A DNA stretch of 64,000 nucleotides from Halosimplex halophilum (lineage in GTDB: Archaea; Halobacteriota; Halobacteria; Halobacteriales; Haloarculaceae): contig NZ_ML214297.1 of assembly GCF_004698125.1 (NCBI RefSeq), positions 496,001 to 560,000 on the forward strand, written 5' to 3'. The notes under the pieces were generated by a model. It saw only the letters and a program-made list of their open reading frames with translations, was not told where the DNA came from and ran no database searches. Both the position numbers and the translations under genes were made by a program. This document shows, in pieces, positions 2,831 to 9,748 of this stretch. The first letter of the stretch is position 1, and each line of letters starts with the position of its first letter.

Positions 2831-2887
2831 GTCGCCCGCATGGCGCGGAGGGGTCTTGGTGTTTGCCCGCCGCTCCGTCGCCGCGGC

Positions 2888-2968
2888 CTCTTCCCGGGCG
2901 GTTCGTCGCCGTGGCTGCTTCCCGGCGACCCGTCCCCGCGGTCGTCCTCCGGCGATCCGTCAGCCCGA
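2888..2968. repeat. Degenerate 27-bp tandem repeat, three units
   Basis: Three successive 27-bp units start at 2888, 2915 and 2942. Each has a cTTCC(c/t)(c/g)GGCG core followed by a CCGTC-like block. They fill the gap between the Gfo/Idh gene start and the stop of the next gene upstream, with the last unit running into that gene's final codons. The period is a multiple of three although the stretch is mostly non-coding. Confidence 0.6.
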
Positions 2969-3412
2969 ACCGTCGCGGTCGGTCAGGTCGGACAGGGCGG
3001 TCGCGCCAGCCAGGTCCGCGACCGTGCAGTACCAGGCGCCGCGCAGCCCCGAGAGGTCGTTCTCGACCGGCTCGGCGAGCGGTTCGAGTTCCCCGAGTTC
3101 GAAGACGACGGCGGCGTCGGTGTCGACGAACGGGTCGATGGTCGCCCGCCAGTCGCGCTCGGAGAGGGGGCCGTGTTCGCCCCGGCGTTGCTCGACCCGG
3201 TCGGTCACCCGGGCGACGTGCGTGACCGCAGAGACGGGTGCCGTGCGGTAGAACGCCACGTACTCGAACGGCTCGTCGGTCCGGTCGTACGACGCCGGGG
3301 ACGGGTAGAACCCCTCGCGGCAGCGCTCGAACGTCGCCGGCCGCGTCGCCACGACGCAGACGCGATCCTCGGGATCTGCCCCGGCCAGCGCCGAGTCGGC
3401 GCCGTCGGTCAT
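2960..3412 (-). CDS. Conserved hypothetical protein encoded downstream of photolyase
   Basis: A 150-residue soluble acidic protein that I do not recognise. It starts MTDGADSAL and contains VCVVATRPATFERCREGFYPSP near residues 18-39, then YVAFYRT (51-57). It shows no membrane segment or metal motif. The ATG overlaps the photolyase stop by 4 bases (ATGA), so the two are co-transcribed and translationally coupled. That suggests a role alongside photolyase, though the link is inferred from position only. The longer in-frame upstream extension is antisense to photolyase codons and was discarded. Confidence 0.75.
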   Translation of the reverse strand: MTDGADSALAGADPEDRVCVVATRPATFERCREGFYPSPASYDRTDEPFEYVAFYRTAPVSAVTHVARVTDRVEQRRGEHGPLSERDWRATIDPFVDTDAAVVFELGELEPLAEPVENDLSGLRGAWYCTVADLAGATALSDLTDRDGSG

Positions 3413-4794
3413 CGCTTCCCCAGCGCCCGCTCGTAGACCCGCTGGGCCCGCTCGTAGGCCGCCGTCCGGTCGACGATCGGGTCGGGGTAGTCGGGCGCCA
3501 GCCGCTCGCGCTCGTCGGGCGAGAGGGTCGGCCAGTCGACCACCTTCCCGGCCGGCACGTCCCGCAGTTCCGGGACGTAGGCCTTCACGAACCGCGCGTC
3601 GTCGTCGTACTTGCTCGCCTGCGCGACGGGGTCGAAGATACGCACGTCCACGGAGTCGGTGCCCGTCGAGGCGATCCACTGCCAGTTGCCCGCGTTCGAG
3701 GCGGGGTCGTGGTCGACCAGCTGCTCGGCGAAGTGGCGCCGCCCCCGCCGCCAGTCGACCAGCAGGTGTTTCGTCAGGAACGAGGCGACGACCTGGCGCG
3801 GCCGATTGTGGATATACCCCTCCTCGCGGAGCTGGCGCATCCCCGCGTCGACCAGCGGATACCCCGTCTCGCCGTGCTTCCACGCCTCGAAATCCTCGCG
3901 GTCGTTCCGCCACTCGATCCCGTTCGGGAACGGCTCGTAGTTCGCCGTCGGCAGGTCGGGGTTGTAGTACAGCAGGTGGTAGTTCTGCTCGCGCCAGGAC
4001 AGCTCGTAGCGGTACTTCTCCGCGTTTCGCCGTTCGTCCCCCGAGACGGCGTCGTGGACTTCTGTCGCGTCCCGCCACACCTCGCGGATCCCGATCATCC
4101 CGGCGGCGACGTACGGGGACAGCCGGGAAACCGCTTGCGCCGGCGCCTCGACGGCGAGCGAGAGGTCGTCGCGGGTGTCGCCGTAACTCCGGATCCCCCC
4201 GTCGAGGAAGTCGTCGTACCCCTCGCGTGCGGCCCCGTACCCCGCCTCCGGGAGGTCGATGTCCGCGTCGGGGACGGGGACCGTCTCGCGGCCGCCCACG
4301 TCGGCCAGGTCGTCCGGTTCGGGCGCCGGCGCCGGCGCGGGTTTGGATACCTGCTCCCAGTCGTCGTGGAACTGGCTGTGGGTCGGGTACCGCTCGTCGA
4401 GCCGGGCGGGGTCGACGAGCACGAGGTCGGGTTCGCTGGCGGTGTCGACCCCCGGTTCGGCACAGGCCGCCTCGACGGCCTCCTGCCGGTCACGACGCTC
4501 GGGGCGGTAGTGCTCGTTGTAGACGAGACCGTCAGCGTCGAACTCGGCGGCCAGCTCGGGCAGGACCTCGCCCGGTCTCCCGGTCCGGATCAGGAGGTCG
4601 CTCCCCCGTTCGCGGTAGGCCTCGCGCAGTCGGTCGACGCCGCGCAGGAAGAACGCGCGCTGGCGGTCGCCCAGGCGGTCGAGGAGGTCGGTGTCACGGA
4701 CGAATACGGGGACGACCGGGCCGTCCGCCGCGGCGGTCGCCAGCCCGCGGTTGTCCCGGACGCGGGGATCCCGCCGGTGCCAGAACAGGCGCAT
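3409..4794 (-). CDS. phr: Deoxyribodipyrimidine photolyase (cryptochrome/photolyase family)
   Basis: A 461-residue flavoprotein that repairs UV-induced pyrimidine dimers using light. The N-terminal antenna-binding Rossmann domain begins MRLFWHRRDPRVRDN. The C-terminal FAD-binding domain carries the family signature GNWQWIASTGTDS, preceded by GMRQLREEGYIHNR and by a histidine-containing VASFLTKHLLVDWRRG stretch. The length matches class I photolyases. The ATG at 4794 is the first start and fits the conserved N terminus. The overlapping downstream gene at 2960-3412 forms an operon with it. Confidence 0.95.
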   Translation of the reverse strand: MRLFWHRRDPRVRDNRGLATAAADGPVVPVFVRDTDLLDRLGDRQRAFFLRGVDRLREAYRERGSDLLIRTGRPGEVLPELAAEFDADGLVYNEHYRPERRDRQEAVEAACAEPGVDTASEPDLVLVDPARLDERYPTHSQFHDDWEQVSKPAPAPAPEPDDLADVGGRETVPVPDADIDLPEAGYGAAREGYDDFLDGGIRSYGDTRDDLSLAVEAPAQAVSRLSPYVAAGMIGIREVWRDATEVHDAVSGDERRNAEKYRYELSWREQNYHLLYYNPDLPTANYEPFPNGIEWRNDREDFEAWKHGETGYPLVDAGMRQLREEGYIHNRPRQVVASFLTKHLLVDWRRGRRHFAEQLVDHDPASNAGNWQWIASTGTDSVDVRIFDPVAQASKYDDDARFVKAYVPELRDVPAGKVVDWPTLSPDERERLAPDYPDPIVDRTAAYERAQRVYERALGKR

Positions 4795-4921
4795 GGCGAC
4801 GCTCGGGGCGACGGCGGCTTAGTGGCTTCGGCGGGGCAGGCGGGGACACGGCCGCCGGATGCGGAGCCGGTCGATGCCGGGACGGGGAAAGCATTTGTCG
4901 GTCCGGCCGGACGCTCCGAGC

Positions 4922-5425
4922 GTGCTCCGCGCGCTCGCGAAGGGCGGTGCGGTCGCCGTGCCGCTCGTGGTCGTCGGGTTCGTCCTGGTCGGGTTCTGGC
5001 CGACGACCGTCCAGCCGGTCGACGACACCCTGGCGATCGACCACGCGCCCGACGACTACGGCCCCGCCCACTACTACCCGGAGAACGACACGGTCCGCTT
5101 CTGGGTGTCGGGCAGCGGCAGCGAGCGGGCGTTCGAACCGTTCGGGGAGTACGCCTGCTGGTACGGCAAGGACGCGGCGACCGACCGGCTCCGGGGGACT
5201 CTCGACACCCGGTTCACCACCGGCGACAGCGGCGTCCGGTTTACGGGCGGTTTCGACCGGGTCGTCGTCCGCGACGTACCGCTGACCGGCCCCACCCGCC
5301 GGGCGCTCCGCCACAGCCTGCCCGAGCGTGTGAACGTCTCCGTCGAGATGTTCGACCGGACGACGGAGTGTTCGTTCCCCGTCGAGATCAGACGGCCGAC
5401 CGGCGATCGACCACAGCCGGGCTAG
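4922..5425 (+). CDS. Membrane-anchored or secreted hypothetical protein
   Basis: About 167 residues from GTG 4922, with an in-frame ATG at 4859 as the alternative. I prefer the GTG because an AT-richer box, gcatttgtc, sits about 28 bases upstream, as in leaderless haloarchaeal genes. One hydrophobic helix (residues about 6-27, GGAVAVPLVVVGFVLVGF) is followed by an exposed domain with two Cys residues and no recognised motif. Function is unknown. The gene is transcribed divergently from photolyase. Confidence 0.6.
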   Translation: MLRALAKGGAVAVPLVVVGFVLVGFWPTTVQPVDDTLAIDHAPDDYGPAHYYPENDTVRFWVSGSGSERAFEPFGEYACWYGKDAATDRLRGTLDTRFTTGDSGVRFTGGFDRVVVRDVPLTGPTRRALRHSLPERVNVSVEMFDRTTECSFPVEIRRPTGDRPQPG

Positions 5426-5439
5426 CGACCCGCCGGATT

Positions 5440-5504
5440 ACTCGTAGACGTGGACGCTGCCGGTCGCGTTGGCCTCGATGTAGTCCCAGTCGTCGACGCC
5501 GAGG
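5440..5504 (-). pseudogene. Displaced 3' end of the sugar-acid dehydratase gene
   Basis: These 65 bases repeat the last ~21 codons and stop of the dehydratase gene (6223-6290). All 65 positions match apart from one 3-base deletion in the tail (TGG-proximal Glu/Tyr codons), and the stop is TAA here instead of TGA. Only the gene tail is present, so this is a 5'-truncated remnant. With the intact copy it forms direct repeats 783 bp apart that bracket the vapBC genes. Confidence 0.8.
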
Positions 5505-5607
5505 GCGAAATTCCCCCGACACGAAACGACGGCACTCCACGGCGCGTCACGTCCTGGGTTCGTTCGGCGGAGGAACTGTTTTGACCCTGCAACTGTCAAC
5601 TCGGAGT

Positions 5608-5775
5608 ATGGGTAGCTCCATCAATTCGTCGTACCCGTCCGACCCGCCCGACGACCGGGAGTCCGGCGAGGGGCACGAAGAACGGCCGGAACTGGGCGAC
5701 TTGCTGTCCGGGCGTCTGTCGGACGTCGATATCGACTCGGTCGCCGCAGTCCGCGAGGAACGAGAGCGGGGATGA
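5608..5775 (+). CDS. Putative VapB-like antitoxin
   Basis: A 55-residue, strongly charged small protein (MGSSINSSYPSDPPDD at the start; LGDLLSGRLSDVD centrally). Its stop overlaps the PIN-domain toxin start by 4 bases (ATGA), the standard antitoxin-toxin arrangement. No AbrB, RHH or Phd DNA-binding fold is obvious, so the antitoxin call rests on size, order and coupling. A T-rich box, aactgttttga, about 30 bases upstream fits a leaderless promoter. Confidence 0.65.
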   Translation: MGSSINSSYPSDPPDDRESGEGHEERPELGDLLSGRLSDVDIDSVAAVREERERG

Positions 5776-6170
5776 CCGTTCTCGTCGATTCGAACGTCTT
5801 CGTCGCCAGCGTGACGGACGAGCCGTCCCGGGGTGACGTTGCGACGGAACTACTCAATCAGGACTTCGAGTTCTGCACGTCGATTCTGAACCTGATGGAG
5901 ATCCGGTCGGTGCTGACGAAGAAAAAGCGGACTGAACAGGAGGAGGTCGAAGCCGTGCTGGAGGACATCTACGAGGAGGTCGACATCTACGCACCGGAGA
6001 TCAGCGACCAGATCACCGCGTACGGTATGCAACGGGAGTCACTTCTCTATACGATGGACTGTGTCCTGCTCGCGCTCGCCGAGGACATCGACGCTACGCT
6101 CGTCACGTTCGACGGGGAGTTGCTCGACAACGGGGCGGTTAGTCCCGGCGAACTACTGGACCAGGTCTGA
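5772..6170 (+). CDS. vapC: PIN-domain ribonuclease toxin, VapC family
   Basis: A 132-residue PIN domain starting MTVLVDSNVFVAS. The acidic metal site is complete: D6, E43 (NLMEIRS), D96 (YTMDCVLLALA) and D114 (VTFDGEL). Such toxins cleave specific RNAs and are neutralised by the upstream antitoxin. It is translationally coupled to that gene. Base composition is less GC-rich than in the flanking genes, and the pair sits between direct repeats of the dehydratase 3' end. Both points suggest recent acquisition. Confidence 0.88.
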   Translation: MTVLVDSNVFVASVTDEPSRGDVATELLNQDFEFCTSILNLMEIRSVLTKKKRTEQEEVEAVLEDIYEEVDIYAPEISDQITAYGMQRESLLYTMDCVLLALAEDIDATLVTFDGELLDNGAVSPGELLDQV

Positions 6171-6220
6171 GCCGCTCCGTCACCAGTAGCACCGCCGTTT
6201 CGTCAGTGGGTGCGAACCTA

Positions 6221-7396
6221 TCACTCGTAGACGTGGACGCTGCCGGTCGCGTTGGCCTCGATGTAGTCCCAGTCGTACTCGACGCCGAGGCCGGGGCCGT
6301 CGGGGACGGGGACAGTCCCCTCGTCGTCGACCGATTCGAGCTGGTCCTCGTAGTCGCCGGCGTAGACCGGCGGGGTGGTGTTGGGCGCGTCGGGGTGGAC
6401 CAGCGCCATCTCGTAGTAGTTGGAGTTGCGGACGGCGGCCATGCAGTGTCGCTGCGCCGGGCCGGGCGCGTGGAACTCCACGTCCAGCCCGTGGCCCTCG
6501 GCGACGCGGGCGCGCTTGATGGCGCCGGTGATCCCGCCGTCGTACTCGGGGTCGGCGCGGACGAAGTCGGTCGCCTCGGCGTCGATGAAGTCGGTAAAGG
6601 GCTCCAGCCCGCGGACGTGCTCGGTCTGGAGGATCGGGGTGTCGAGCTGCTGGCGGAGCTTGCGGTGGGCGTGCTGGGAGATCCCGCCGTCGCGGTAGGG
6701 GTCCTCGTACCAGAAGAAGTCCTGTTCGTCGAGCGCGCGGCCGAGCTTAACGGCGTCGGCCAGCGTCTCAAGCTCGCAGGCGGGGTCGTGCATCAGGTCC
6801 ATCTCGTCGCCGACGCGCTCGCCGACGGCGTGGACGGCGTCGAGTTCCCGCTCCAGGTCCCGGGAGCCGTCGCTGCCGCCCCAGCCGTGGATCTTGAAGC
6901 CGGGGTAGCCCATGTCGCGACACTCGGCGGCGAAGTCGGCGAAGTCCTCCGGGGTTTCGAGGCCGCCGTTCTCGTCGCCGTGGTACGTCGAGGCGTAGGC
7001 AGGGAGCCGTTCGCGGTAGGTGCCGAGCAGCTCGTGGATCGGCGCGTCGTGGTACTTGCCGGCGAAGTCCCACAGCGCGATGTCGACCGGGCCGATCCCC
7101 ATGCGGTCGTACTTGCGGAGCGCCCGCTTGATCTCCGACCAGTGTTTCTCCCGTTCGAGAGGGTTCTTGCCGACCAGGTAGTCGGCGAAGGTGTTGATCT
7201 GGGCGGCGCCGGGGGAGTTGCCGCCGACGTACTCGCCGGTGATCCCCTCGTCGGTGTGGACGGTGACGGCGAACAGTTTGCGCTCGACGCTGCCGCCGGG
7301 CTCGTAGACGAGGTTGAACCCGTGCTGGTCGGTCCCCATCTCGGGGATCTCGTAGGCGAACTCGACGCTCTCGATCTTGGTGATCGTCGGAGCCAT
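6221..7396 (-). CDS. Enolase-superfamily sugar-acid dehydratase (MR/MLE type)
   Basis: A 391-residue enzyme that abstracts the alpha-proton of a carboxylate sugar, probably dehydrating an aldonate or uronate. The barrel catalytic set is visible: K168-I-H170 (GFKIHGWG), Mg ligands D204 (LMHDP), E231 (FWYEDP) and E259 (LQTEHV), and H309 (VEFHAPG), with D282 nearby. A Lys-x-His motif instead of Lys-x-Lys restricts the subgroup, but I cannot name the substrate. ATG 7396 opens the conserved MAPTITKIES start; the upstream in-frame extension is antisense noise. Its 3' end is duplicated at 5440-5504. Confidence 0.9.
   Translation of the reverse strand: MAPTITKIESVEFAYEIPEMGTDQHGFNLVYEPGGSVERKLFAVTVHTDEGITGEYVGGNSPGAAQINTFADYLVGKNPLEREKHWSEIKRALRKYDRMGIGPVDIALWDFAGKYHDAPIHELLGTYRERLPAYASTYHGDENGGLETPEDFADFAAECRDMGYPGFKIHGWGGSDGSRDLERELDAVHAVGERVGDEMDLMHDPACELETLADAVKLGRALDEQDFFWYEDPYRDGGISQHAHRKLRQQLDTPILQTEHVRGLEPFTDFIDAEATDFVRADPEYDGGITGAIKRARVAEGHGLDVEFHAPGPAQRHCMAAVRNSNYYEMALVHPDAPNTTPPVYAGDYEDQLESVDDEGTVPVPDGPGLGVEYDWDYIEANATGSVHVYE
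6223..6290. repeat. Direct repeat: intact copy of the dehydratase 3' end
   Basis: This is the partner of 5440-5504. It covers the final codons of the dehydratase gene and matches the displaced copy base for base except for three extra bases near 6277. Together they look like the two ends of an element that entered the 3' end of this gene and regenerated it. No integrase gene lies between them. Confidence 0.75.
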
Positions 7397-9301: not shown

Positions 9302-9748
9302 TCAGAGGGCCCTCGCGGTGCTGACGTGCATCGAGACGAACTGCCACCGGTCGCCGTTCCCGTCGGCCGCGGTGGCCCCGTCTTCACCCGCCCCGTCGGC
9401 GCCGTCGGCCGACGAGCCGTCCGCCCCGCGCAGTTCGAGCGTTCCCGTCCAGCGGGTGTCGAACTCGTAGCGGATCCGCCGCTCGGTGTCGGTCCAGGCC
9501 AGCGAGACGCGGTCGCCGAACCAGGCGTGGCGGTCGCGCTCGGTGACCCGCAGGTCGCGGCTCCCGACGCTCCAGTCGGTCGTCCGCTCGGTCTGTTCGC
9601 GCAGCCCCTCGGCGACGGCGTCGCCGCCGACCAGCCGCTCGGAGATGCCGACCTTGACGGCGCCGTCGACCGGGGCGAAGAAGGGGGCCAGCGGCTCCCC
9701 CTCGCGGAGCGCGTCGTAGTAGGCCTCGACCCGGTCGGCGGCGCCCAT
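9302..9748 (-). CDS. SnoaL/NTF2-like fold protein
   Basis: About 148 residues beginning MGAADRVEAYYDALREGEPLAPFF, the helical opening of NTF2-like proteins. The rest is beta-rich (RDRHAWFGDRVSLAW and FDTRWTGTLELRG), with a low-complexity Gly/Asp/Ala insertion at about 110-130 and a final strand that contains QFVSMHVS. NTF2-like proteins bind small ligands or act as isomerases or hydrolases, and the specific role is unknown. Its start overlaps the preceding gene's stop (TGATG), so the two are coupled; a GTG one codon earlier is possible. Confidence 0.78.
   Translation of the reverse strand: MGAADRVEAYYDALREGEPLAPFFAPVDGAVKVGISERLVGGDAVAEGLREQTERTTDWSVGSRDLRVTERDRHAWFGDRVSLAWTDTERRIRYEFDTRWTGTLELRGADGSSADGADGAGEDGATAADGNGDRWQFVSMHVSTARAL

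Follow-up and report, generated by a model that had tools for sequence, protein, structure and literature searches.

In Halosimplex halophilum, a small islet consisting of a vapBC toxin–antitoxin (TA) pair was bracketed by two direct copies of the 3′ end of a sugar-acid dehydratase gene, and the corresponding site was empty in several congeners. Gene ends were likewise duplicated around related vapBC pairs at several other target genes. At the most common of these, the chorismate mutase (CM) gene, discrete and horizontally shared cassettes occurred in tandem arrays, and one cassette end was combined with different cargo. The cassette arrays at the CM end are a stronger finding than the dehydratase locus. 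On the basis of these sequences, we propose with moderate confidence that the islet is a mobile TA cassette, which would use a gene end as its attachment site, be moved in trans and be lost by recombination between the two tails.

The duplicated dehydratase end and its vapBC islet

The window (the whole stretch of 64,000 nucleotides analysed, G000:C1:496001–560000, where G000 denotes the H. halophilum genome) carries the target gene on the minus strand at 6221–7396. This gene encodes a sugar-acid dehydratase of the MR/MLE superfamily (391 codons; Pfam MR_MLE_C, 1.4e-44). Its 3′ end was present twice as a direct repeat, at ca. 5437–5507 and ca. 6220–6293, and both copies span the stop codon and the last ca. 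24 codons. A local blastn comparison of the two locus halves aligned the copies over 74 columns with 93% identity and one 3-nt gap (E = 3e-27), confirming the duplication at a start-to-start spacing of 783 bp that had been claimed from the sequence-only reading. The gene-side copy (6221–6293, minus strand) is the functional dehydratase end with the stop TGA, whereas the far copy (5438–5507, minus strand) has its own stop TAA and a 3-nt deletion. The 3-base gap of the earlier description therefore stood; the stop codons differ at the second base, not at the third as had been claimed.

Between the copies lies an islet of 712 bp (5508–6219) with a GC content of 61.4%, compared with 71.5% in the window and 69%–72% in the neighbours of the islet. 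Its gene content was vapB and vapC only, as anticipated from the letters alone, and the predicted absence of an integrase also held: no integrase or transposase was found inside the islet. No tRNA was detected anywhere in the window. The vapB-like antitoxin gene (5608–5775, plus strand, 55 codons) overlaps the toxin gene vapC (5772–6170, plus strand) at ATGA. VapC contained a PIN domain (PF01850, 2.4e-15) in which the acidic positions D6, E43, D96 and D114 were kept; these showed little or no variation among 20 homologues. The VapB-like protein of 55 codons had no Pfam match. In relatives, its C-terminus contained the conserved sequence LGDLLSGRLxDVDIDSVxAVREERER, and the 55-codon ORF upstream of vapC was also conserved in two congeners (G005 and G001) and in the CM cassettes. 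The pair is thus predicted to be a type II VapBC toxin–antitoxin system, with toxicity and neutralisation inferred from sequence; no toxicity was observed. Upstream of vapB, AACTGTTTTGACCCTG (5574–5589, plus strand) was conserved in the alignment of G000, G005 and G001, and the region is inferred to be the probable vapBC promoter region.

The locus was compared with those of seven Halosimplex congeners (G001–G007, including Halosimplex aquaticum, G001, and H. carlsbadense, G002), all of which had a dehydratase orthologue at the corresponding position. The islet with vapBC was absent from this position in five of them (G002, G003, G004, G006 and G007). When the flanks of the window were joined at the tail, they aligned without a break over 317–318 bp to G004 (92% identity), G002 (89%) and G006 (80%). 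Given a single tail and flanks continuous with those of the window, these three are clean empty sites, in which the native left neighbour (4859–5425, plus strand; 188 aa, no Pfam family) adjoins the single dehydratase tail. This is the state that the sequence-only reading had expected of relatives lacking vapBC. Together with the other target genes described below, the empty sites support its view of the repeat as the footprint of an element that enters the 3′ end of a gene and regenerates it.

The same sites contradict an old tandem duplication of the dehydratase gene that decayed to a remnant of 70 bp, with vapBC acquired between the copies. The repeat is indeed a piece of a gene lying beside that gene, but in five congeners the gene is single and vapBC is missing, with continuous flanks in three of these, and the arrangement is found again at several genes unrelated to it, in every case at the gene end. 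We consider this origin practically untenable. Such a duplication, or vapBC invariably present without the repeat, had been named beforehand as refuting the reading; neither was seen, the exception of G001 being attributable to a deletion-like join.

G005 had the same islet as the window, with vapBC and both tails, and its tail homology extended about 10 bp further inward than noted for the window. The far copies of G000 and G005 lack the identical codon (the 3-nt deletion), indicating one shared insertion event older than the split of the two genomes. In G001, vapBC lies beside the dehydratase without a far tail; across one deletion-like join (ca. 2864 to 5547 of the window), the photolyase, the 188-aa ORF and the far tail are gone. 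A tree of four neighbouring genes placed G002, G003 and G004 in a well-supported group with G000 and G005, with G001 outside. From this tree, the presence of vapBC in G000, G005 and G001 reflects either one gain with one later loss (in G002/G003/G004) or separate gains, and the two remain undecided.

The G001 arrangement could also be taken to favour homology-facilitated illegitimate import, in which donor DNA carrying vapBC and the dehydratase enters by a homologous crossover in the gene and an illegitimate join inside the recipient tail. However, the G000 dehydratase is nearer to those of the empty-site congeners than to that of G001, and the precise boundaries of CM cassettes across genera (see below) would be unexpected from one-off end joining. 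We judge such an import to be very unlikely.

Separate rearrangements in G001 and G006 (L039, L040) had nearly identical left breakpoints (ca. 2864–2872 of the window), just upstream of an oxidoreductase gene, and the photolyase was missing in both genomes.

Duplicated gene ends around vapBC in other haloarchaea

VapC relatives from the family and from named haloarchaeal genomes (64 loci) were screened for direct repeats bracketing vapBC. Repeats of at least 36 bits flanked 22 of 63 VapC-family loci. At the same threshold, they occurred at only 5 of 335 control centres in these loci and at none of 30 Usp loci; a background control covering ca. 1.2 Mb of two genomes gave 19 of 420 centres, mostly repeats between paralogues. 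The tail repeats around vapBC are not due to chance. Approximately 6 of the 22 repeat-flanked loci were not tail duplications (CRISPR arrays, tandem genes and other repeats). Among those rejected but included in the 22, the strongest repeats near vapBC were CRISPR arrays in L082, L083 and L091 and a tandem gene copy in L098. The remaining loci, with the window, G005, a second copy in G000 and G035, were nearly all tail duplications beside a cassette (L096 had no identified target). No tail repeat was detectable at about 40 of the 63 loci.

The duplicated tails belonged to genes encoding a class V aminotransferase (G000:C3, Halorientalis persicus and H. pallida), HMG-CoA reductase (G035), SecY (three Halorubrum in the screen), glutamate dehydrogenase (GDH; L094), a DUF7112 protein (Halegenticoccus) and CM, which was the commonest target with seven species in the screen. 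The search for vapBC beside the tails of different genes, proposed in advance as a check, was therefore positive at several other genes and in other genera. The upstream tail lay about 200–400 bp before vapC and the downstream tail 6–110 bp past the vapC stop (ca. 210–220 bp at SecY). Cassettes at the dehydratase, aminotransferase and HMG-CoA reductase genes were convergent with the gene, and those at the CM, SecY, GDH and DUF7112 genes were co-directional with it. In four Halorubrum loci (L107, L111, L125 and L128), VapBC lay behind secY with a tail copy of 25–29 bp and a cassette end motif as in the CM cassettes.

The second vapBC of G000 (L068 1144–2139 = G000:C3:286623–287618) lies behind the class V aminotransferase gene; its vapC carries an in-frame TGA. 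The aminotransferase tail duplication measures 142 bp at 98.6% identity, both tails contain G000-specific bases, and G005 and G001 have empty sites for this insertion. Such a locus would be consistent with insertion accompanied by a long and variable target duplication, in which the repeat is made from the target and is not carried by the cassette. In the parts of the literature available to us, this type of insertion is described for restriction–modification (RM) systems (PMC3874152, PMC3031569). It could hold for the convergent class including the window, whose duplications range from 54 to 142 bp, share no common end motif and are associated with no mobility gene. Nevertheless, the inner part of the far copy in L066 and L112 resembles a different allele and not the neighbouring tail, and nearly every duplication covers a gene end with its stop, contrary to what random target duplication predicts. 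We therefore regard target duplication as somewhat unlikely, while retaining it as a possibility.

The differences between tails are informative about their origin. In L112 (Halorientalis), the gene-side tail agreed with two congeners at every discriminating site, whereas the inner positions of the far copy carried a codon found in other genera. In the HMG-CoA reductase tails of G035 (L066), six of the seven differences were synonymous, and they were confined to the inner 29 bp. The far CM copy of Halorientalis salina (L074) was an all-synonymous allele, with the peptide unchanged and its last residues encoded by other codons. These three cases suggested that the far and gene-side tails often represent different alleles of a single gene end, and not a copy and its decayed duplicate. 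Under the proposed cassette model, allelic tails would be the expected trace of a crossover between the resident gene end and a cassette-borne gene end. A foreign origin of the gene-side tail is not claimed, because divergence was only weakly raised near the end of the HMG-CoA reductase and aminotransferase genes. The closest outside matches of the two longest tails indicated no clear donor.

Several inserts with other genes had comparable repeats. In G035:C2, the start of a DUF309 gene was duplicated (72 bp, 93%) around a PIN toxin of a different family (L287 8946–9954), and a relative of this toxin was flanked by a 75-bp repeat in L309. Also in G035:C2, a 103-bp tail of a GNAT acetyltransferase gene was duplicated (90%) around a non-TA pair, a 354-aa gene and an MscS-like channel (L296 12889–15094). 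Given the two G035 inserts, one at a gene start and one with a non-TA pair, gene-end duplication is not exclusive to TA cargo. A euryarchaeal MAG (L129 323–1086) encoded a distantly related VapC (32% identity), flanked by a 43-bp, 93% repeat that extended over the end of the convergent gene.

Cassettes and arrays at the chorismate mutase gene end

The CM VapBC cassettes were ca. 0.7 kb long, with ends common to several genera. After the stop of the gene, they started with a GACGCAACACYCTCG-like sequence, and before the far copy they ended with AGCGGCAA...TGTTACAYCAGTYGACTAC followed by CTGAAC. The AGCGGCAA...TGTTACAYCAGTYGACTAC end also closed cassettes with other cargo, namely ParE/RHH (L399) and MazEF with RHH-PIN (L398), and a different, TATGGATTTCAGCTAC-like end closed another group. 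In L398, the same 40 bp preceded two far copies (at 9456 and 11511; L385/L396) with differing cargo (MazEF and RHH-PIN). The motif CAGYYGACTAC was located directly upstream of the far copy at CM and SecY and had no other occurrence in 1.03 Mb of flanks.

In pairs of loci from different genera, the alignment covered 100% of the VapBC cassette, and CM was compared over 600 bp. The identities of the cassette, CM and far flank were 97%, 82% and 49% between Halobellus captivus and Halorubrum laminariae, 95%, 76% and 52% between L081 and G173, and 91%, 74% and 43% between Halorientalis salina and G255. Since cassettes were 91%–97% identical compared with 70%–82% for CM, and the far flanks were unrelated, the unit from the stop of the gene-side copy to the start of the far copy evidently moves without its flanks.

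A pattern search in 391 genomes, followed by reading of the matches, revealed arrays after CM. Three far copies stood in a row in L080 (Halorubrum kocurii), and two each in L399 (G431), L398 (G131), L077 and L401 (G173); every cassette of an array terminated in a 33-bp copy of the 3′ end of CM. Culturable species with CM arrays include Halorubrum halodurans and H. kocurii. By Pfam or inspection, the TA cargo at CM comprised at least six kinds (VapBC, MazEF (PemK), ParE with RHH (ParDE), PIN with RHH, PIN with an AbrB-like protein, and MNT-HEPN), and non-TA cargo included a LysE exporter, a CAAX protease and a regulator with a metallo-hydrolase. In genomes sampled regardless of vapBC, at least one far copy occurred within ca. 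1.5 kb of CM in five of eight Halorientalis and three of six Halapricum genomes. The idea that the CM loci of these two genera are mostly empty was wrong, as several hold other cassettes closed by the CM tail.

Among 26 far copies at CM, the peptide LNKVEQRESR* was kept, with mean minor-allele fractions of 0.057, 0.048 and 0.324 at the first, second and third codon positions. The CM tail peptide had no background match of at least 7/11 in 2.4 million strand-bases. Conservation of the peptide while third positions vary shows that the far copies are former working gene ends.

These features bear on whether host homologous recombination alone, without a dedicated recombinase, would suffice. A circle of vapBC and one tail, arising from a tail–tail crossover, would then integrate by a single crossover at the same gene end in another cell. 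The targets are conserved genes with homology across species, and the tail differences in L112, L066 and L074 fit a crossover between two tail alleles. On the other hand, identical stretches at CM are as short as 22–33 bp, CM flank sequence was not co-transferred, and an end motif common to two unrelated targets and found nowhere else in the flanks would be unexpected from blind homology. We consider this explanation unlikely.

Recombinase genes were found neither in the islets nor among those CM neighbours that were scanned; not every neighbour was covered, and a distant enzyme is not excluded. The CM-flanking ORFs scanned included no integron-integrase, and there was no Int2-like gene within the loci. 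VapBC of this family was present in the haloviruses PhiH1 (PhiH1_230/235) and PhiCh1 (ORF43/44), where the 3′ ends of vapC and of the tyrosine recombinase gene int2 face each other (PhiH1, L382 2384–3599; PhiCh1/pNMAG03, L381 2867–3992). The viral pairs have the VapC family in common with the window, but no gene-tail repeats have been shown for the viral copies, and the chromosomal cassettes do not contain int2. Int2 of PhiH1/PhiCh1 was rejected as a resident recombinase because no full homologue was found in the chromosomal loci, the single exception, in L092, being a partial match at a distance of 3.7 kb. Scans of IMG/VR for VapC and for CM or SecY tails as attP, made for a viral origin of the cassettes, found nothing.

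The three Halosimplex VapCs formed a clade (support 98) inside a clade of 22 members (support 98) that includes the majority of the CM-site VapCs, 11 of its members being at CM; with only 130 columns, the finer order in the tree is unsure. Although this is not proven and the direction of movement is inferred, it is economical to assume that the dehydratase gene is a secondary site to which a CM-type cassette has spread. The window cassette differs from those at CM in lacking the CM/SecY end motif, in its opposite orientation to the gene and in the length of the duplication (74 vs. 33 bp). Because of these differences, common mobilisation of the window and CM cassettes has not been demonstrated.

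Proposed mechanism and relation to known systems

We propose that the cassette (ca. 0.7 kb) consists of a promoter, vapB, vapC and a copy of the 3′ end of the host gene. Upon entry, this gene-end copy would recombine with the resident 3′ end, leaving the gene intact and the displaced end as a fragment on the far side. Since the cassette encodes no recombinase, the enzyme would have to act in trans, and it might be a viral or plasmid-encoded tyrosine recombinase or belong to the recombination system of the host. Exit by recombination between the tails would delete the cassette and restore the empty site; close relatives with empty sites are the basis on which this loss is inferred. The toxin may penalise loss of the cassette, following the usual argument for TA systems, although this addiction role is itself inferred. 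The main haloarchaeal site would be the CM gene end, which would receive TA cassettes in succession, and the Halosimplex dehydratase would be a secondary site. The reaction and its enzyme are inferences, as is the suggestion of the sequence-only reading that a helper enzyme or recombination moved the islet; neither excision nor a circle was observed.

A broader hypothesis is offered more tentatively, as plausible but far from established: Halobacteria may possess an integron-like system without a resident integrase. Cassettes, mostly TA, would be captured serially at the CM 3′ end and less often at other genes, with the gene-end copy as the recombination site and a trans-acting recombinase recognising the CAGYYGACTAC end. 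The window islet would then be one cassette at a secondary site.

By analogy, the cassettes come closest to a phenomenon described for RM systems, which insert with long target duplications of variable length (PMC3874152, PMC3031569, citing Nobusato 2000 and Furuta 2010). As far as the accessible parts of these sources allow comparison, both involve an addiction-type pair without its own mobility gene, direct duplications of ca. 20–150 bp and clean empty sites. The direct target duplication absent from empty sites is thus present here, whereas the cassettes carry a TA pair in place of RM cargo. Unlike in RM insertions, moreover, nearly every duplication falls on the end of a conserved gene, many genera have cassettes at one and the same gene end, and CM has tandem arrays with a common end motif.

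For the CM site, the nearest architecture is, again by analogy, that of the integron. Archaeal integrons and CALINs have been characterised by an integron-integrase and attC cassette arrays (Ghaly et al. 2022, PMC9668308), a paper in which Halobacteria are not mentioned. Tandem arrays of small cassettes at a fixed site, each with one repeated site and a common end, frequent TA cargo, and empty and filled states are features in common. The array feature was met at CM (L080, L399, L398, L077 and L401) but not at the window. In contrast to integrons, the repeated site at CM is a 33-bp gene-end copy with an adjacent motif and no attC-like hairpin; the 26 far-copy sites had no hairpin potential (mean folding z of −0.05 and −0.13 per strand, RNA parameters). 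The CM neighbours tested also lacked an integron-integrase.

Archaeal proviruses and plasmids use the 3′ end of a gene, usually a tRNA gene, as attB, which is restored, and carry a tyrosine or serine integrase (PMC4158269). The direct repeats from a gene 3′ end and the intact gene at the window locus correspond to such integrative elements, but the present unit measures 0.7 kb, carries nothing beyond a TA pair and lies at protein-gene ends, and no integrase of its own was found between the repeats in the window islet or the CM cassettes. TA cassettes at gene ends in haloarchaea were not described in the literature searched, although most subscription papers were outside our reach.

TA modules are highly mobile. 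To our knowledge, the movement of bare TA pairs without their own mobility gene is largely unexplained. The CM arrays would represent a gene-capture platform in a group for which integrons were not mentioned in the archaeal survey (PMC9668308). In these cassettes, the boundaries of the unit, its attachment site and the empty site can be read from the sequence, and a cassette can be traced between genera. TA mobility in archaea thereby becomes a question that can be tested at the bench.
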